The notes beneath the pieces were generated by a model. It searched no databases. It saw nothing but the letters and a program-made list of their open reading frames with translations, and was not told the origin of the DNA. Positions 53,900 to 63,987 of a stretch of 64,000 nucleotides of DNA are shown in pieces. The stretch spans positions 1 through 64,000 of the forward strand of contig JAUPUU010000203.1 in NCBI GenBank assembly GCA_030917395.1. Reading direction: 5' to 3'. The position numbers and the translations under genes are program-made. Numbering within the stretch: the first letter of the stretch is position 1; every line of letters begins with the position of its first letter. Source of the stretch: Cyanobacteriota bacterium erpe_2018_sw_21hr_WHONDRS-SW48-000092_B_bin.40 (GTDB lineage: Bacteria > Cyanobacteriota > Vampirovibrionia > Obscuribacterales > Obscuribacteraceae).

Positions 53900-54607
53900 G
53901 TGGACAATAAAGAATGCACCGAGCAATTTAGCCAGCTATCGACGCCTATGATTGCCGATGCCTGTGTGCGCTTGAAGCTTGCCGTTCGCTCAATGCCTGC
54001 AGGGCTCACTGCGCTTATACCGGGCAGCAAAGTAGCTGGCCAAGCTTTGCCGGTAAGACACTACGGTAGCGTTGATATATTTCTGGAAGCTATGCTACAA
54101 GCAAAGCCGGGTGACATATTGTGCATAGACGACCGCGGTCGCAATGACCAGGCCTGCATTGGCGATTTAACGGCCCTTGAGGCCGAGTGCTATGGCATAG
54201 CAGCTATGCTTATTTGGGGCTGCCACAGAGACACAGATGAATTAGTGCGCATTGGTTTGCCAATATTTAGCTATGGTAGACATCCTTCGGGCCCCCTGAA
54301 GCTAGAAACAGCAGAACCGAAATCAATTGGCCTAGCAGAGCTTGGCAGCACGACCGTTGAGAGCAATGACTTTGTCTTCATCGATTCGGATGGAGCAGTT
54401 TTTGTGCATAAGGATCATATGAGCGATGTTTTCACCACAGCCAAACAAATTTATGCAGCCGAATCGAAACAAGCGCAGCTAGTGAGAGATGGTCAAAACT
54501 TGCACAGTCAGCTTATGTTTGACGACTATTTGAAGAAGCGAGCAGTAGAACCAGCCCTTACTTTCCGCGAGCATCTGCGCGCCCTGGCCAAATCGATAGA
54601 AGAATAG
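53900..54607 (+). CDS. RraA-like/4-hydroxy-4-methyl-2-oxoglutarate aldolase-family protein
   Basis: STPMIADACVRL, GDILCIDDRGRNDQACIGDLTALEAECYGIAAMLIWGCHRD. Confidence 0.88.
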   Translation: MDNKECTEQFSQLSTPMIADACVRLKLAVRSMPAGLTALIPGSKVAGQALPVRHYGSVDIFLEAMLQAKPGDILCIDDRGRNDQACIGDLTALEAECYGIAAMLIWGCHRDTDELVRIGLPIFSYGRHPSGPLKLETAEPKSIGLAELGSTTVESNDFVFIDSDGAVFVHKDHMSDVFTTAKQIYAAESKQAQLVRDGQNLHSQLMFDDYLKKRAVEPALTFREHLRALAKSIEE

Positions 54608-55452: not shown

Positions 55453-56355
55453 CTAACGCAAAAACTCAATGCGCTTAGTATCCATGCCGAATCGTCTAGA
55501 AACATCCACACTCCACTGCCACATCTTAGTGCTGAGCTTGGTGTCATACGAAGCTTTCGACGAAAGTACTTCGCGGCCATTGACGAAATATTTTCCCGTC
55601 ACCTGGTAAAGCTCAGGAGCACTAGCAAGCTGAATAACAGTGCGGGCGCCTTCTTCTGGCTTGACACCAAAGACTTTGGCATTTAGCTGAATTGCTTTAC
55701 CAATGAAGCCATTGTTAGAGCCAAAGTCAGTAGCGACAATGCCTGGGTGCATGGCATTGACAGTGACTCCTGTCGACTTAATGCTATAGGCCAAATGATA
55801 TGAGAAAAGTATGTTAGCCAGTTTGGTATCGGCATAGTTGAGAAAACCAATAGGCATTTTATCGCGCATATTTGGTGGCCCACTCAATGATGAGCGCTTA
55901 TGAGCATCGGAGGAGACATTGATAATACGAGACGGGGTGCTGGCTTTGAGCACATCAATGAGATAACCAGTCAACCAGAAGTAGCCAAAGTGATTGAGCG
56001 CCCAAGTCATCTCTAGACCATCTTTGGTATCAGCGCGACGCATGAACACGCCACCAGCATTGTTTACAAGCACATTGAGCTTGCTGTATTTGTTGGTGAA
56101 ATTCTTAGCTAAGCTCTTCACTGATTGAAAGTCAGAAAGATCCGCAGTCAGGAAGTCGAGATTGGTATTGCCTGTCTGAGCTTCAATTTCAGCCAGGGTG
56201 CTTTCGCACTTATCAGCGTTGCGACCAACAATAATTATATTGGCACCACGACCGGCCAATTCCATAGCTGTGACCTTACCAATACCAGCAGTGGCACCAG
56301 TGATTAAGCAATTCTTGCCTCGCATCGACAAATCGGGCAAAGCGTTAGATTCCAT
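55453..56355 (-). CDS. Short-chain dehydrogenase/reductase
   Basis: CLITGATAGIGKVTAMELAGRGANIIIVGRN, NVLVNNAGG, FLNYADTKLANILFSYHLA (YxxxK). Confidence 0.95.
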   Translation of the reverse strand: MESNALPDLSMRGKNCLITGATAGIGKVTAMELAGRGANIIIVGRNADKCESTLAEIEAQTGNTNLDFLTADLSDFQSVKSLAKNFTNKYSKLNVLVNNAGGVFMRRADTKDGLEMTWALNHFGYFWLTGYLIDVLKASTPSRIINVSSDAHKRSSLSGPPNMRDKMPIGFLNYADTKLANILFSYHLAYSIKSTGVTVNAMHPGIVATDFGSNNGFIGKAIQLNAKVFGVKPEEGARTVIQLASAPELYQVTGKYFVNGREVLSSKASYDTKLSTKMWQWSVDVSRRFGMDTKRIEFLR

Positions 56356-59300
56356 GGATTCCTTCCTCTTTCACAAACTTGCTCAATCTCTCCATGGTTT
56401 CACGGAAAGCAGCATCATCGATACAAAAACACATGCGCACCATTTCTGGTGTGCGGCCCCAAGCAGCGGGGTTAGTCAAAAGCTTGTACTGCTTAGCCAA
56501 CTGCTCGTGCTTACTATCAAGCTTGGCTAGCAAGAATAGACCACCACGATAGGGAGTATCGTAGCCGTCATCAAGACCCTTTGATTTGAGCAGACCTATC
56601 AGTTCTTCTCTTCGACTTGAGAGAATCTTTCGTTGACTGGTCAGGTAGGTCTCGACCTCGGAGAAGGCCTGAGAAACGTCCATCATTTGGTGCGGCGCCT
56701 TTTCTAAGAAAGCCGAATAGAGGGCATCCCAAGCTCGCAAAATGGCAGCAGGAGGTGGGTCGACATGGGCAGCAATTTCTTGGGCCCAATCTTCATCAGG
56801 AGTGACCATAAAGCCACAGCGCATGCCGCCAGCAGCAAAGCTTTTAGCAATACCGTCAACCATAAATATGTTGCTACCACTTGGCCCCGAAGCAAATGAC
56901 CCGGCAGATAGTGATGATGGTGTCCACTTGCCAAGGCGATGATCGGAGAGCAAGAAGAAGATTTCATCAGAGAACACATAAATGCCTTGCTTGTGGCAGT
57001 TCTCTATGATTGTGCGCAAGCGCTCTGGGTCTAAGAATATGCCACTGGGATTATTTGGTTGAGTAAGCCAGAGCAGATCTGGTTTCTCAGGCAAAGCAGC
57101 AATATCTTTTGGTGAGATCAAGAAAGCCCGCTCAGGGGCGGTTTTCACCTCAACTAAGCGAGCACCATAATAGGTGAGCATCGGGTAGAGCGGGCCATAG
57201 CTGCCGTCAGGAACAGCCACCAGGCAGGGTCGACCTAAGCGCTTAGATAAGGCCTTGATCATGGCGCCAAAGAGAGGGAAAACGCCCTGGCCCAGAACAA
57301 TACGCTTACCTGAAATAGCGACCTTGCGGGTCCATTTCATGTAAGCAGCAACACGCTCGCTGACAATCTGCGGCAGAATAGTAGTCTCTTCGTCTAAGAA
57401 ACCCTTGAGCAAACCTTTAACCAGAATGTCTGGCACTGGTGATTCGAATTCACCGTAGTCGAGCCTGATTAGACTAGGGGTTTCGAGATCAATTGGTTTG
57501 GCAGCGAAGCAAGGATCTTTGCTTAGCTCGGTAATTAGAGGTGTGACTGAAAGCTTGGAACTAACCAAATGACCGGCTTCGCTGTGATTTGATTCACCGT
57601 GCACGTTGTTAGCATTCAACTTGCGCTCTAATACTTGATCAGGGAATGGGAAAGTCATCAAATCATCGAAGAGCCATTCATACAAAAGTTGAGTAGGATA
57701 GGCAATACGTGAGTAGCTCAACTCTGAACCAATCTCCAGCCCTTCCATCCAGGCAGCCGGTGCGTTAATTAAGAAGCTCAATTCAAGGTCACGGCTGATT
57801 GTATTTTTGATCAGACCATATAGCAGTATCAGATTTTCTGGCAACGGCTCTTGGCCAGCAAAGCGCAAGGTCATGTTAGAGCCAAGCTGCGAGCTAATTG
57901 TGAAGCTCTCCGAATCATCAATCAAATACCAGCGGTCAGGATGCTGCCTTGCTTGCTGGCAAATTGCTTTGAAATTAATCGGTGATGGGTTGAGCAACTG
58001 TCGCGGAGAGATTAGCACCACCTTCGGTGCCACAAGATCGTCTAATTCATTTAGCTCAGAGAGGTCATCATTGCCGACTGTAAGATCTAAATCGTTATCG
58101 CGGGCCACTCTCTCGTAGACGGAGGCCACCGAAGAAGATAAGAGTATGCGGTCACCCGAGCTGGCGACCATGCGCAAGACCATATCGACTAATTCAGCGC
58201 GCGAAGGCGCAATGAACAATTCAGACGCATCGATGGGGTAATAGCAGAAACCATTAAGGTAGCGCGCCACAATAGCGCGAATACTTAAATCGCCCCGTTC
58301 ATGGGGGTAGGGAATGGTTTTCACATCAAGCAAAGAACGCGATAGGCGGCTCAAGAAACTAATCTTCTCGTGACCAAGACGAGAAAAATCGAGTTCTTTG
58401 CGCAAGCTCTCAAGCTTCATATGATTCAAGTTGCGAACGAAGGCAAAGACCTCAGGCTCGAACCTGGTATCGGCTTGATAAACAAGCAGATCGTGAAAGA
58501 CCTGCCGACCTGCGGCTAGTAATTTCACGGCCGTGGCGGCAGAAACCGACAGTTCCGAATCGCGGGACATAAAGAAGTGAAAGCGAATGCCGTGCTCAGC
58601 TTCTAAATCAACTAGAGATGCTAAGTCGGTGTCATCGGCTTGTTGAATGCGACGCATCCAAACCAGTTTGCTCTCATAGCCGCGGCGATCAAACATACTT
58701 TCGATGGCATGGCGCCCAGGTCTGCCACCTAACACCAAAGTAACCCTTCCACCGGGATTGAGACAAAGCTGGGCCTGCTCTAAGGCCCGGGCAATCAAAG
58801 GCAAACCAAATCGGTCCTCTAAAATTCCTTGTTCGAAGCAATAGTTACTCAGGTCATAAAGATCTTTTTCGGAAAGCGCTTCGGCATTTTCGCTGTCACC
58901 AGTTCCAAAGTTCATCTCACCTTTGACTGGGTTTGGATGCAAAACTTGAGGGATGCAGCCAATCACATGGTCAAAGTGTTGGCCAGTCGCCAGAGGCGTC
59001 GAGAGCAAGTCTGAAACTTCAGCTTGAAAGGCTTTGACAATTGGTTCACCGGCCATGCTGAGCACATAGCCACCGTCAGCAGTGGTGCCGTTGAGCCAGG
59101 TATTGAGCTTGGCCATGGTAACGGCCACCGGATTCAAATCGAGTCCTAAAACCTCTTTCACATTTGTGACGAAAAGCAAAAGCAAACTAATCCAGCCAGA
59201 ACCGGTTCCCACTTCGACAATGCGCTTACCGTGAAACTGCTCTTTGCTTTTCAGCAAACCTTCAGCAAAGGTTCTGCCCCATAACTCAGGCGAGAATACT

Positions 59301-59635
59301 GCCGGAGTAAGAAGCAGTCTGATTGGATCGGGCAAGGAAGGCAAACCAACACTCTTTAGAACCAGCTGCTGCTGCTCGGGCTCGCCGTCAAGATCTGATT
59401 TATGCGAAGTAGAGGTAGAAGTAGTTAAGCTCTGCTTGGCCAGGTCATCGGCTAGCTCATGCAAAATTTTGATAGCTGCTTTTTCGGTGGCTTCGTCTTC
59501 AAGAGCAGCCAGCAAAACGTTGAGTTTGCTCTGCACAATATCAGCCCGGTCTAGCTTGCCGAACTCGGCATTAGGCACCTGACTACAAGCAGCAAGTATT
59601 TCTTGCCTTGACGGAACGCTGAGAAGCTTGCTCAC
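56345..59635 (-). CDS. Methionine S-methyltransferase-like fusion: N-terminal SAM methyltransferase plus C-terminal fold-type I PLP aminotransferase
   Basis: 1096 aa; KRIVEVGTGSGWISLLLLFVTNVKEVLGLDLNPVAVTMAKLN, DHVIGCIPQVLHPNP, YDLSNYCFEQGILEDRFGLPLIARALE; C-term LLWLTQPNNPSGIFLDP, YVFSDEIFFLL, DGIAKSFAAGGMRCGFMV. Confidence 0.88.
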   Translation of the reverse strand: MSKLLSVPSRQEILAACSQVPNAEFGKLDRADIVQSKLNVLLAALEDEATEKAAIKILHELADDLAKQSLTTSTSTSHKSDLDGEPEQQQLVLKSVGLPSLPDPIRLLLTPAVFSPELWGRTFAEGLLKSKEQFHGKRIVEVGTGSGWISLLLLFVTNVKEVLGLDLNPVAVTMAKLNTWLNGTTADGGYVLSMAGEPIVKAFQAEVSDLLSTPLATGQHFDHVIGCIPQVLHPNPVKGEMNFGTGDSENAEALSEKDLYDLSNYCFEQGILEDRFGLPLIARALEQAQLCLNPGGRVTLVLGGRPGRHAIESMFDRRGYESKLVWMRRIQQADDTDLASLVDLEAEHGIRFHFFMSRDSELSVSAATAVKLLAAGRQVFHDLLVYQADTRFEPEVFAFVRNLNHMKLESLRKELDFSRLGHEKISFLSRLSRSLLDVKTIPYPHERGDLSIRAIVARYLNGFCYYPIDASELFIAPSRAELVDMVLRMVASSGDRILLSSSVASVYERVARDNDLDLTVGNDDLSELNELDDLVAPKVVLISPRQLLNPSPINFKAICQQARQHPDRWYLIDDSESFTISSQLGSNMTLRFAGQEPLPENLILLYGLIKNTISRDLELSFLINAPAAWMEGLEIGSELSYSRIAYPTQLLYEWLFDDLMTFPFPDQVLERKLNANNVHGESNHSEAGHLVSSKLSVTPLITELSKDPCFAAKPIDLETPSLIRLDYGEFESPVPDILVKGLLKGFLDEETTILPQIVSERVAAYMKWTRKVAISGKRIVLGQGVFPLFGAMIKALSKRLGRPCLVAVPDGSYGPLYPMLTYYGARLVEVKTAPERAFLISPKDIAALPEKPDLLWLTQPNNPSGIFLDPERLRTIIENCHKQGIYVFSDEIFFLLSDHRLGKWTPSSLSAGSFASGPSGSNIFMVDGIAKSFAAGGMRCGFMVTPDEDWAQEIAAHVDPPPAAILRAWDALYSAFLEKAPHQMMDVSQAFSEVETYLTSQRKILSSRREELIGLLKSKGLDDGYDTPYRGGLFLLAKLDSKHEQLAKQYKLLTNPAAWGRTPEMVRMCFCIDDAAFRETMERLSKFVKEEGIHGI

Positions 59636-59732: not shown

Positions 59733-61544
59733 CTATGGGTTTTCGGCCAATCCAGGGCGAGGAGTGACAGGTGGTGCAGCAAGGCGCAAATCATTGCCTT
59801 TCCAGCGCGACTTCAATACCGGTGTTTGCAAGACACCCCGCTCAGTCAAGACTTCTTGCTGTACTTTGTCTTTCATATTGCTGAAAGCTTCACCAAGGGT
59901 AGTGGCATCACCTTTGCTCTTCAGTGATTCAATTAAACAACGTGTGAAGACAGAGTTCTGATAATGCTTCGACTCCCACGATACTTGTGAAGGCTGGCTC
60001 GAAGAAATAACTAGTTGACCAGTACCTTGAGCAACTTCAGAGATGTCGACATTGCCCTGGCGGAAAAGCCCCTTAGCGCCAGGATCGGCAGCACCACTGT
60101 GGCAGGCATCGAGAACAAGAACGACTCGATCAGAATGAACGCGGCCTTTAATAATTCTCGTCAAATCTTGCATAGGCAGACCAGAAGCGTAGAGACTGTC
60201 GACCTGGCTGTCGTATGCCAGCAGGTAGTTGACACCACCTATATCCATGTCTGAGGCACTACCGTGGCTAGAAATATAAATGACGACCAGGTCATCAGGG
60301 TTAGCCACCCGAGGAAGCCACTTATCACCCAATTCAGAAAGGATATTGGCCCGAGTGGCCTGTTCATTAGTGAGTAATTTGACGTGGTCAGCAGCGAAAT
60401 GGCCTTCCTTCAACAAATAATCGTTGAAGTCTTTAGCATCTTTGGCAGGATATTTGAGATTGAGCTTACTGTCTTGAAAATTGCTGATGCCTACAATTAG
60501 TGCCCATTTATCTCTCACTGGACGATTGGTAACATCGAGAGCGGATTCTTCGGCAGGTGTCTCGGCATCGGCCTTAACGGTTGTCTTAGCAGGGCCTTTC
60601 ACTTTGCCGTTGTTGGCCATGGCCAGGCGACGAGCCTCTTCCACTTCATGTTTGTTGCGCTGCCGCTCGATTCGCTCTTCGGCTTCTTTTTCTTTCAAAG
60701 CCAATTCGCGGGCCTTCAATTCATTGCGTGAACGCTCCGCTGCAGCCAATTCTGCTTCTTTTTTCTCGTGCGCGACCTTAGCCTCTAGCTCTTTTTGCAA
60801 AGCTAACCACTTAGGGTCATTGATACCAGCAGCGGTAGCAATGACAGTTTGATTGGTGACGGCTGGGGTGGTGCTAACAGAAGAACCAGCATGCCCAGTC
60901 GAGACACCATAAGTTGGCTTGCCTTTAGCATCATAGCCACTGGTCGTGCGCGCCACATGGGGCCGCACAGAACTGCCAGTTTGACTCGATGCTACCTGAT
61001 TGCTGGCAACAGTAGCAACAGCAAGATCAGTATTTGCGGGCTCGACGGGCTTAGCCTTGGCAATTTTCTGTTTTTCTAGTTCTTTGGCCGCAAAGTCACG
61101 ATTAGTCTTGGCATCAATTAAATTGGGGTCAATCGCCAGAGCCTTATCAAAATCGGCAACAGCCTTGTCAAGCTGACCCAGGTTTGAATAAAGCAAACCA
61201 CGGCTGAGAAAACAGCTGGTGCTGTCTGGCGCTAAGCGAATGGCGTCATTAAGATCGGCCAGAGCGCGGTCATTTTGCTTGATGGCCAGCAGCGCTAAGC
61301 CGCGCCAATAATAGGAATCAGCCCGGTCGCCGTTCAATTTGATTGACTCGGTTAATGCCTGAATGGCCTGGTCAAACTGACCTTGGTTATAGGCCTGCTT
61401 ACCTCGATCAAGAAAAGTATTCTCGTTGTCATACCACGCAGCTTCAGTCGGTTGGCTCAGTTCATGGCCACAGGGCAAGAACATGGGGCACAGAAGCGGC
61501 GTTAGAGAGAGTATGAGTGATGCTGCAATCTGTTGTTTTTTCAT
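59733..61544 (-). CDS. Secreted TPR protein with C-terminal caspase-like (peptidase C14) domain
   Basis: Signal peptide, TPR (DQAIQALTESIKLNGDRADSYYWRGLALLAIKQNDRALADLNDAIRLAP), charged coiled coil, caspase His VVIYISSHGSASD and Cys VVLVLDACHSGAA. Confidence 0.93.
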   Translation of the reverse strand: MKKQQIAASLILSLTPLLCPMFLPCGHELSQPTEAAWYDNENTFLDRGKQAYNQGQFDQAIQALTESIKLNGDRADSYYWRGLALLAIKQNDRALADLNDAIRLAPDSTSCFLSRGLLYSNLGQLDKAVADFDKALAIDPNLIDAKTNRDFAAKELEKQKIAKAKPVEPANTDLAVATVASNQVASSQTGSSVRPHVARTTSGYDAKGKPTYGVSTGHAGSSVSTTPAVTNQTVIATAAGINDPKWLALQKELEAKVAHEKKEAELAAAERSRNELKARELALKEKEAEERIERQRNKHEVEEARRLAMANNGKVKGPAKTTVKADAETPAEESALDVTNRPVRDKWALIVGISNFQDSKLNLKYPAKDAKDFNDYLLKEGHFAADHVKLLTNEQATRANILSELGDKWLPRVANPDDLVVIYISSHGSASDMDIGGVNYLLAYDSQVDSLYASGLPMQDLTRIIKGRVHSDRVVLVLDACHSGAADPGAKGLFRQGNVDISEVAQGTGQLVISSSQPSQVSWESKHYQNSVFTRCLIESLKSKGDATTLGEAFSNMKDKVQQEVLTERGVLQTPVLKSRWKGNDLRLAAPPVTPRPGLAENP

Positions 61545-61587
61545 AATTCAGCTACTTTTTCGACGTGGACTTAATCACTTACAATTT

Positions 61588-63288
61588 TCAGTTCTGAGAA
61601 GCGGGACTTTTGAGTCGCCTTAACATTTCGAATTTTGACTGATCTACGCCGGTAATAGATGAATTAGGAGAAGAATCTTTCATTGTTTTCTTTACAGACT
61701 CGTTAGAGCGCTGGCTCGAAGAAGCTGAAACATGCCGTGTGGCAGCTTTCGAGCGCCCTTGCCTGGACTGACCGCGCTTTTCTAAATCTTCAGCCCCAGA
61801 CCCGGAGACTGAAGCACCTGAGGACGCCTGAGGGCTGTTGCCACCCGAATTAGAACTATTTTTGCTGTAGCCGGCAAAAGTTGCCGAAGTCGTGACCGAA
61901 CCGGGCACATATCGCCTTACCTTAGTGTGCTCAAGATTACGACCTGCATTAACGGCAAATAATACACAGGCAGCTAACATCAAAACAGTCAGAGTGTAGG
62001 TAAGCATATGAGTGGCCGTTGCTGAATTGTCCGCTGAACCCTGGCCAGCATGGGATTGGTTAGATTGGTTAGCAGTGGGCGGCGCAAAGGGGCTGGCAAA
62101 TGAAGTGGTAGGAACCGTTTGGAGATTGCCATTGCTTGCTTTCTGTTGCTCGGCAAAACTCCAGGAGCGCCCAGGATCTGCCGACCTGGCAAAATTCTTA
62201 ATGGAATGGTCTGGATGCAAACAGGCTTGCTCTAAGGCGTCTTTAAAATCAATCATGCTGGCAAATCTCTCCACCGGATTCTTGGCCATTGCCCTGGCGA
62301 TGACATTTTCTAGCTGCACAGGAAATTGCCCATCAGGACAAGCGCAGGCTAGCGTTGGCGGTTGATTGTGCATATGGCAATGCAGCAACTCATAGACATT
62401 GGCTCCCCAAAAAGGGTCTTTTCCTGTGAGCATTTCGTAGATAACACAGCCAAGAGAATAGATATCAGAGCGACTGTCACACTCTCGACCGGAGATTTGC
62501 TCTGGGCTCATATAAGGAGGAGAGCCCCAAAGCTCTCCAGAATGGGTCAGTTTGCGTGAGTCTTCGCCCAGTTTTGCTAGACCAAAATCCACTACTTTTA
62601 CTTGCCTATGAGCTGCTTGCTCTAGCCTATAACTACCATTCGAGGCACCAATATTGCCACCACTAGCAGTATCATCCAACAACATTATATTGGCTGGCTT
62701 AATATCGCGGTGAATAACCTCATGACGATGAGCGTGGCCCACACCAAGACAAATCTGCGCTGCCACACCATAGGTTTGCTCTAGTGAGAGGCGGCCTTCA
62801 AGGAGAACTTGGTCGAGGGAAGAACCTTTCAAATAATCCATCACAACATAAGGCTGACTATCGGTGCCGATTACGCAATCATAGACAGTGACGACATTAG
62901 GATGAGAGAGCTTACTCAAGGTTTTCACCTCGCGCTCAAATCGCCGCCAAATGTCTGGTCTCTCATCCACTCTAAATTTCACAGTCTTAACTGCAACCAG
63001 CCGCTCAACCGGTTCTTGCATAGCCTTGTAGACCACAGACATGCCACCGAAGCCGAGGACTTCGAGAATATGATATTTATCGTCGAGTACGGTGCCGATT
63101 AATGGGTCTTTGCGAATTTGTTCTTGAAAGCGCTTCTCTTCTTCAAGCAAGGCCTCGGTCATATTGTCTTCGGCCAAATTGCGAGTGCGATAGCCGGCCC
63201 CAAAGTCTGTCACCGTAGGCAAATCAGTTGATTTGCCAAACTCTTGTTTGCCAAGCTCATGGTCAACGGAATCTTGATCTTGACTCAT
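61588..63288 (-). CDS. Membrane-anchored Ser/Thr protein kinase (PknB-like)
   Basis: GFGGMSVVYKAM, VAVKTVKF, VIHRDIKPANIMLL, VVDFGLAKLG, GSPPYMSPEQ; TM THMLTYTLTVLMLAACVLFAV. Confidence 0.96.
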   Translation of the reverse strand: MSQDQDSVDHELGKQEFGKSTDLPTVTDFGAGYRTRNLAEDNMTEALLEEEKRFQEQIRKDPLIGTVLDDKYHILEVLGFGGMSVVYKAMQEPVERLVAVKTVKFRVDERPDIWRRFEREVKTLSKLSHPNVVTVYDCVIGTDSQPYVVMDYLKGSSLDQVLLEGRLSLEQTYGVAAQICLGVGHAHRHEVIHRDIKPANIMLLDDTASGGNIGASNGSYRLEQAAHRQVKVVDFGLAKLGEDSRKLTHSGELWGSPPYMSPEQISGRECDSRSDIYSLGCVIYEMLTGKDPFWGANVYELLHCHMHNQPPTLACACPDGQFPVQLENVIARAMAKNPVERFASMIDFKDALEQACLHPDHSIKNFARSADPGRSWSFAEQQKASNGNLQTVPTTSFASPFAPPTANQSNQSHAGQGSADNSATATHMLTYTLTVLMLAACVLFAVNAGRNLEHTKVRRYVPGSVTTSATFAGYSKNSSNSGGNSPQASSGASVSGSGAEDLEKRGQSRQGRSKAATRHVSASSSQRSNESVKKTMKDSSPNSSITGVDQSKFEMLRRLKSPASQN

Positions 63289-63330
63289 TTGCTGACATAC
63301 CCGAAGTAATTGTCACAGGCGCACCAAAAA

Positions 63331-63987
63331 CTAATTTGGTCCTCCACCGGGTGTAAAACCCTGATTGGGCCCCTGAGGCCCTTGCAGATTTGGCCCTGGA
63401 CCGCGACCACCACCACCCCTGAAGGTGGGCCGATCATCCGGCTGATGCTCCATTTCGTCTGCCAAGCTAGAAAGCAAAGAATTGATTCGGCCAGGGCTTC
63501 CACCCTTCGCTTTTTCAGCGACGATATCACCTAACTTGCGCAGATAATAGACTCCAAAGGACGGGTCACCGCGATGCTGCATCAGCTCGCTTTTAATCTT
63601 GGTCATAAGAGCCTGATTTTGCGCTTCCATCGGATCAGAACCTGCCGAATTGGCAACGGACTGTGGCCGGTCAGAGTTCTGACTAGAGGCCTGACTGAAA
63701 GTCTTGCTGGAAGAAACAACAGTAATGCCACGGCCGGAACCAGTGCGACTAGCCTGCCGAACTAAGTCTTCTTGCACAGCCAGTTTCTCGCCTAATTTTT
63801 GCAATGACTCCTTGACTGCTGCGGTCTGACCACTTTTTGCCTGTGCCTCTAGTTGAGCGAACATTGACTCAAAAGGTGCCACACCAGTTCCCTTACGCCT
63901 TAGAGAGTTGATTCTATCCATCAAGAGCAAGCGCTCATCTTCGCATGGGCCAGCTGAAACAGATAACTTTCGCTCTTCTGCCGACAA
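63331..63987 (-). CDS. Hypothetical protein, may extend past the right window edge
   Basis: 218 aa open frame reaching the window edge; helical N-term and Gly/Pro-rich C-term; just upstream of the kinase. Confidence 0.55.
   Translation of the reverse strand: MSAEERKLSVSAGPCEDERLLLMDRINSLRRKGTGVAPFESMFAQLEAQAKSGQTAAVKESLQKLGEKLAVQEDLVRQASRTGSGRGITVVSSSKTFSQASSQNSDRPQSVANSAGSDPMEAQNQALMTKIKSELMQHRGDPSFGVYYLRKLGDIVAEKAKGGSPGRINSLLSSLADEMEHQPDDRPTFRGGGGRGPGPNLQGPQGPNQGFTPGGGPN

Follow-up and report, generated by a model that had tools for sequence, protein, structure and literature searches.

Can a single bacterial polypeptide make S-methylmethionine (SMM) and also process it further? The question is raised by a gene resembling that of plant methionine S-methyltransferase (MMT), found in a 64,000-nucleotide stretch of contig JAUPUU010000203.1 (assembly GCA_030917395.1) from a member of the Obscuribacterales, bacteria that are related to cyanobacteria but do not photosynthesise. 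The whole stretch is hereafter the window. The original prediction described a plant-type MMT fused to an aminotransferase-like domain with an apparently intact lysine for pyridoxal 5′-phosphate (PLP) in a bacterium, and proposed a possible entry to a sulfonium compound or one like dimethylsulfoniopropionate (DMSP). The identities of the methyltransferase and PLP domains have stood up to analysis, novelty of such a fusion in bacteria and the link to DMSP have not. The reading we prefer is that of a three-module, plant-like (Group III) MMT which would make SMM, with the PLP site of the third module acting on this product or on a closely similar amino acid; we give this reading an even chance.

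A conserved protein of three modules

The minus strand carries one intact open reading frame (ORF) of 1096 amino acids (aa) with a GTG start and a TAA stop, as had been claimed, and every motif quoted for it was found: GCIPQVLHPNP (aa 226-236), LSNYCFEQGILEDRFGLPLIARA (aa 262-284), PNNPSG, SDEIF and AKSFAAGGMRCGF, which contains Lys931. Orthologues with ~40-98% identity occur in many genomes, almost all full length, the complete ones being ~1030-1170 aa. Values of dN/dS, where computable, are ~0.005-0.11 in all three modules, and the gene is under purifying selection. Because of these orthologues and the low dN/dS the ORF is not a chance occurrence; it is a real, conserved variant of an already known layout. 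A promoter and terminator scan gave nothing useful, promoter-like sites being no better than in shuffled sequence. Coordinates are listed in Table 1. Residue counts there and in the text refer to a family set of 37 members and cover those that have the domain in question.

Table 1. Position of the gene, its modules, selected residues and the adjacent gene in the window
Feature	Position	Strand	Evidence
Complete MMT-like gene, 1096 aa	56345..59635	-	GTG start, TAA stop; orthologues
Module 1 (aa 90-390), MmtN/MMT-type S-adenosylmethionine (SAM)-dependent methyltransferase	58466..59368	-	Profile match to MmtN, residue conservation
Module 2 (aa 430-668), degenerate aminotransferase-like fold limited to the core of the large domain	57632..58348	-	TIGR01265, AlphaFold2 (AF2), Foldseek
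Tyr443, near-invariant P-Y-P; candidate Tyr70* equivalent	58307..58309	-	Tyr in 36/37; position inferred, motif alignment
Lys610, Schiff-base lysine position of degenerate copy	57806..57808	-	Lys 34/36, Arg 2/36; hhalign-aligned with Lys931
Module 3 (aa 700-1090), fold-type I PLP domain (Aminotran_1_2)	56366..57538	-	Pfam, PDB profile, Foldseek, residues
Asn862, aspartate aminotransferase (AspAT) Asn194 position	57050..57052	-	35/35
Asp890, AspAT Asp222 position	56966..56968	-	35/35
Phe893, at AspAT Tyr225 / GntC Tyr189 position	56957..56959	-	Phe in 35/35
Lys931, predicted PLP Schiff-base lysine	56843..56845	-	Lys in 35/35; aligned to Lys of VNGAAKAFAMTGWRIGY, Thermus AspAT
Arg939, AspAT Arg266 (phosphate contact)	56819..56821	-	35/35; 8 residues past Lys931, as in Thermus AspAT
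Arg1067, AspAT Arg386 (alpha-carboxylate contact)	56435..56437	-	34/34
Short-chain dehydrogenase/reductase (SDR), downstream neighbour	55453..56355	-	Start overlaps MMT stop by 11 nt

In Pfam the 1096-aa protein matches Aminotran_1_2 (PF00155, aa 759-1084, E 4e-25), besides the core of a methyltransferase domain at aa 135-186. A profile of module 3 finds PDB aminotransferases with E 2e-16; Foldseek of the full-length model against PDB aminotransferases gave a probability of 1.00 and a TMt of ~0.74. The claim of an aminotransferase-type domain with a PLP lysine is thus supported with respect to the fold, and the lysine aligns with that of Thermus AspAT and never varies within the family. Together with the other PLP-site residues it is intact and invariant across two families and ~18 genera of Obscuribacterales. 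The fold and the PLP-binding residues are shared with Thermus AspAT, Pyrococcus aromatic aminotransferase (AroAT) and GntC, and module 3 differs from fold-type I aminotransferases in its phenylalanine at the Tyr225 position and in sharing its chain with a methyltransferase and a degenerate copy of the fold. Its matches to individual families all fall far below the cut-offs. The best in NCBIfam is to GntC (NF041364, E 4e-21), and membership of the GntC-type PLP cyclases was rejected with 75 bits against the curated cut-off of 415 bits. On sequence grounds module 3 is best described as a PLP-competent domain of aminotransferase fold, with the reaction left open. One orthologue (L066:7277-10780) has a unique insert of ~47 aa right after the SDEIFFLLSD block of this module.

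What lies between the methyltransferase and the PLP domain? Pfam gave no match for aa 390-668; the region matches TIGR01265, a tyrosine/nicotianamine aminotransferase model, with E 7e-4. Since profile-profile comparison with module 3 is too weak to be used alone, we turned to structure. Module 2 modelled by itself (AF2, 17 sequences) has a pLDDT of 83. Foldseek lists hundreds of matches for it, of which the best 50 are all fold-type I PLP enzymes, PDB aminotransferases and C-S lyases, the top one with E 2.9e-10, probability 1.00 and a TM-score of ~0.6 by query length. An invariant Asp573 is kept and equivalents of Asn194 and Arg266 are missing. The model thus points to a degenerate aminotransferase fold at aa 430-668, overlooked by the original prediction, which makes the C-terminal half look like a fused aminotransferase pair. 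A natural 651-aa version of the protein (L024:7066-9021) consists of the methyltransferase and a worn module 2, and no module 3 remnant was found on its contig.

For module 1 the closest solved structure is Roseovarius indicus MmtN (Group I; PDB code 7VVV, E 1.5e-11 with a profile of 15 orthologues), as anticipated from the MMT-like N-terminal domain claimed. The match spans aa 22-293 of the 305-aa MmtN chain, nearly its whole length. The family alignment contains VGTGSG, a SAM motif of the GxGxG type. Residues Asp166, Ser208 and Cys227 correspond to Asp69, Ser101 and Cys121 of the MmtN SAM site, the MmtN numbering of SAM-binding and methionine-binding residues being that published (PMC9135737). 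The aspartate and cysteine are kept in all 36 sequences having the region, and Ser208 is invariant in alignments of 14 and 15 rows. A PADLOC match to mad2 (E 1e-9) was rejected as a sign of a defence system, as it covers only aa 113-306, a generic methyltransferase region.

Possible roles of the PLP domain and fates of SMM

The mechanism that we infer starts in module 1, which would methylate the sulfur of methionine with SAM as the donor and so give SMM. Module 2 is a worn copy of the aminotransferase fold and module 3 the copy in which the PLP-site residues have been kept. Because aminotransferases form their active sites where two subunits of a dimer meet, module 2 is probably the built-in partner of module 3, the two pairing within the chain as a pseudo-dimer that has a single complete site. 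In aminotransferases Tyr70 reaches into the active site of the neighbouring subunit, and Tyr443 may be lent to the cofactor pocket of module 3 in a similar way. Module 3 would then bind PLP and convert SMM, or else a closely similar amino acid, by PLP chemistry, for which transamination to the sulfonium oxo acid would be the single most likely reaction; that SMM specifically is transaminated is a guess. A bifunctional enzyme is a plausible reading. A more far-reaching version, in which the protein is self-contained, makes SMM and then converts it within the pseudo-dimer, and the inert half of plant MMT is the relic of such an enzyme, is offered tentatively, at slightly below an even chance.

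Several observations weigh against the preferred reading. One is the invariant Phe893 where typical aminotransferases have Tyr225, a residue that hydrogen-bonds O3′ of PLP; the same replacement is seen in SDEIF, where Thermus AspAT reads SDEIY. Because of this phenylalanine we describe module 3 as PLP-competent and not as a proven aminotransferase. In module 1 the methionine-binding Glu127 of MmtN is His233 in all 36 members having the region, and Arg132 and Glu250 land in gapped alignment; with the histidine there, methionine is a likely and not a proven substrate. The comparison of modules 2 and 3 by hhalign yields a probability of 3% and E 0.015. Confidence in the AF2 model of the whole chain is moderate (pLDDT 71) and falls to values <50 near aa 227-301 and 930-936. 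Finally, the L024 protein lacks both module 3 and the lysine of module 2, yet the methyltransferase has been kept.

The last of these also fits a different explanation, that only the methyltransferase works, as in plants, and the remainder is a structural or regulatory platform, for oligomerisation or as an allosteric sensor of amino acids or PLP, whose PLP residues would be retained to bind a ligand and not for catalysis. Plant MMT is known to form SMM and has the same extra domain (PMC9135737), and module 2 is already degenerate yet strongly constrained. Against it, the catalytic set, the Schiff-base lysine and the arginine for the substrate carboxylate included, is invariant in all members with the domain; we consider this explanation rather unlikely, if deserving attention. 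Alternatively module 3 might cleave the sulfonium, by γ-elimination or cyclisation of SMM to dimethyl sulfide and either 1-aminocyclopropane-1-carboxylate (ACC) or a 2-oxo acid. ACC synthase performs comparable chemistry on SAM, and Ko, Eliot and Kirsch reportedly described SMM in 2004 as a substrate and inactivator of that enzyme. Module 3 matches ACC synthases (E 3e-12) and the C-S lyase PatB (E 1e-11) in the PDB, its best NCBIfam match, GntC, is a γ-elimination cyclase, and Phe893 departs from the aminotransferase norm. Nevertheless every one of these matches is unspecific, far under the family cut-offs, and plain aminotransferases score equally well. Nor does the phenylalanine suit the comparison: of the GntC residues Asp186 and Tyr189 (PMC10367076), the tyrosine falls at the Phe893 position. 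Cleavage of SMM appears unlikely to us.

Decarboxylation of SMM to DMSP amine, which comes second in the DMSP methylation pathway, is highly improbable. Plants and bacteria that make DMSP do use an SMM decarboxylase after the methyltransferase (PMC11464771, PMC9135737), and the CobD decarboxylase is matched weakly by module 3 (E 3e-14), but the known SMM decarboxylases are of the ornithine/diaminopimelate (DAP) decarboxylase type and have another fold (PMC11464771), no gene for a DMSP-amine oxidase or aldehyde dehydrogenase was recognised nearby, and of the four Group III bacteria that have been tested, DMSP was made by a single one (PMC9135737). In the accepted role of plant MMT, methyl groups are stored as SMM and returned to homocysteine by a homocysteine methyltransferase (HMT) (PMC9135737). 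The source genome does encode a 643-aa fusion of HMT with methylenetetrahydrofolate reductase (MTHFR) as well as MetH, but both also occur in members of the order without MMT. A clear stand-alone enzyme of the MmuM type was not seen in the order, in which a few frames of 224-417 aa on small contigs were left unexamined. Across the Obscuribacterales, PF02574 proteins are mostly MetH (~1180 aa) or the HMT-MTHFR fusion (~650 aa). In the second family, the three MMT carriers (G386-G388; 76-94% complete) have no PF02574 domain at all, MetH included. Because the PF02574 proteins are MetH, fusions or short frames and these three carriers are without any, HMT would be no general sink for SMM; a plant-style SMM cycle is poorly supported as a general explanation, and we think it improbable. 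With such a cycle not general, the fused PLP domain would be the natural consumer of SMM, as in the reading that we prefer.

Comparison with known enzymes and distribution

Group III MMT combines an MmtN-homologous N-terminus and an aminotransferase domain on one chain, and this is the layout observed here at ~1000-1100 aa. Plant MMT (Group III in PMC9135737) likewise has an MmtN-like N-terminus and an aminotransferase-like C-terminal half, with a mass of ~115-120 kDa as here. A full-length plant-like MMT has already been published for Deltaproteobacteria and Oligoflexia (PMC9135737), for example in Pseudobacteriovorax, so that its occurrence in a bacterium is not new. By published description these proteins share the dual-domain layout and show no tie to DMSP, non-ribosomal peptide synthetase or methionine-cycling genes (PMC9135737); they differ from the present family in lineage. 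What is new is that the PLP site never varies, that a second aminotransferase fold lies hidden in the chain, and that the lineage is the Obscuribacterales. MmtN, in contrast, is a single domain encoded in DMSP clusters, with Glu127 at the position of His233. A precedent for sulfur methylation and the following step on one polypeptide is DsyGD of Gynuella and some cyanobacteria, which by its description belongs to the transamination pathway and joins a 4-methylthio-2-hydroxybutyrate (MTHB) methyltransferase to a 4-dimethylsulfonio-2-hydroxybutyrate (DMSHB) decarboxylase (PMC11306096).

How does the PLP site compare with that of plants? In the plant MMT literature we found no statement about a PLP lysine. 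A presumed sequence of Arabidopsis MMT aligns end to end with the window protein (26-28%, E ~1e-100). In this presumed sequence Lys931 is replaced by leucine, Arg939 by lysine and Tyr443 by phenylalanine, and Lys610 is kept. This agrees with the original prediction, in which plant MMT lacks the PLP lysine, and is to be taken as a lead. What SMM does in bacteria that have Group III MMT has been called hard to predict, the aminotransferase-like half being given no role (PMC9135737). A bacterial family with an intact, invariant PLP site makes that role directly testable, and would suggest that the aminotransferase-like domain of plant MMT is a decayed enzyme. Uncultured Obscuribacterales, represented by metagenome-assembled genomes (MAGs), some from groundwater, would also join the possible sources of sulfonium compounds and dimethyl sulfide.

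The MMT-like protein is present in 37 of 53 Obscuribacterales genomes, distributed over two families and 18 of 25 genera. In a sample of 386 genomes across the Cyanobacteriota only the source genome carries it, the 385 others being without. A scan of contigs gave 16 loci, all labelled Obscuribacterales, Melainabacteria or unclassified bacterial or cyanobacterial MAGs. Viral contigs were searched and gave no relative. Among plasmid records there were only two matches, both of MmtN type and from alphaproteobacteria: in Rhizobium lusitanum a class I SAM methyltransferase gene lies beside a DAP-decarboxylase gene, and in Rhodovulum the locus is near an aminotransferase gene. Published mmtN DMSP clusters resemble these loci (PMC9135737).

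Gene neighbourhood

The gene order in the window and in close relatives is kinase and TPR-caspase genes, then MMT, then SDR. The SDR is probably co-transcribed with MMT and is not an obligatory partner; of the 36 loci in relatives, 13 have it close by on the same strand and one more has it at a distance of 1.5 kb, the other loci being different. A role of the SDR as reductase of the sulfonium oxo acid was dropped as a general explanation because it adjoins MMT in only part of the family.

The neighbours of MMT in the window are SDR, TPR-caspase, kinase, MOSC, OPT and RraA-like genes, among which no SMM decarboxylase, amine oxidase or aminotransferase, or aldehyde dehydrogenase was recognised. 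Genes of sulfur or DMSP metabolism were not recognised in the vicinity either; in relatives the neighbours are mostly unannotated, with no shared partner. Given this, and an SDR adjacent in only part of the family, the suggested link to DMSP was not borne out and DMSP production is unsupported.

Upstream of MMT, at 59733-63987 on the same (minus) strand, lie three genes whose order is conserved in several close relatives. They encode a tetratricopeptide repeat (TPR) protein that has a caspase domain (Peptidase_C14), then a Ser/Thr kinase, then a short protein; PADLOC reports a 'caspase' match here with E 3e-15. In one subclade (L060, L061, L065, L075 and L076) a protein of 283-284 aa takes the place of the SDR next to MMT. 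It starts MPY(Q/T)AEISRTNPSCFLFLIDQSGSM in L060 and L065 and resembles a von Willebrand A domain. On the plus strand, at 53900-54607, a protein of the RraA-like/aldolase family is encoded next to genes for a DUF2490 protein and a MOSC-domain protein.

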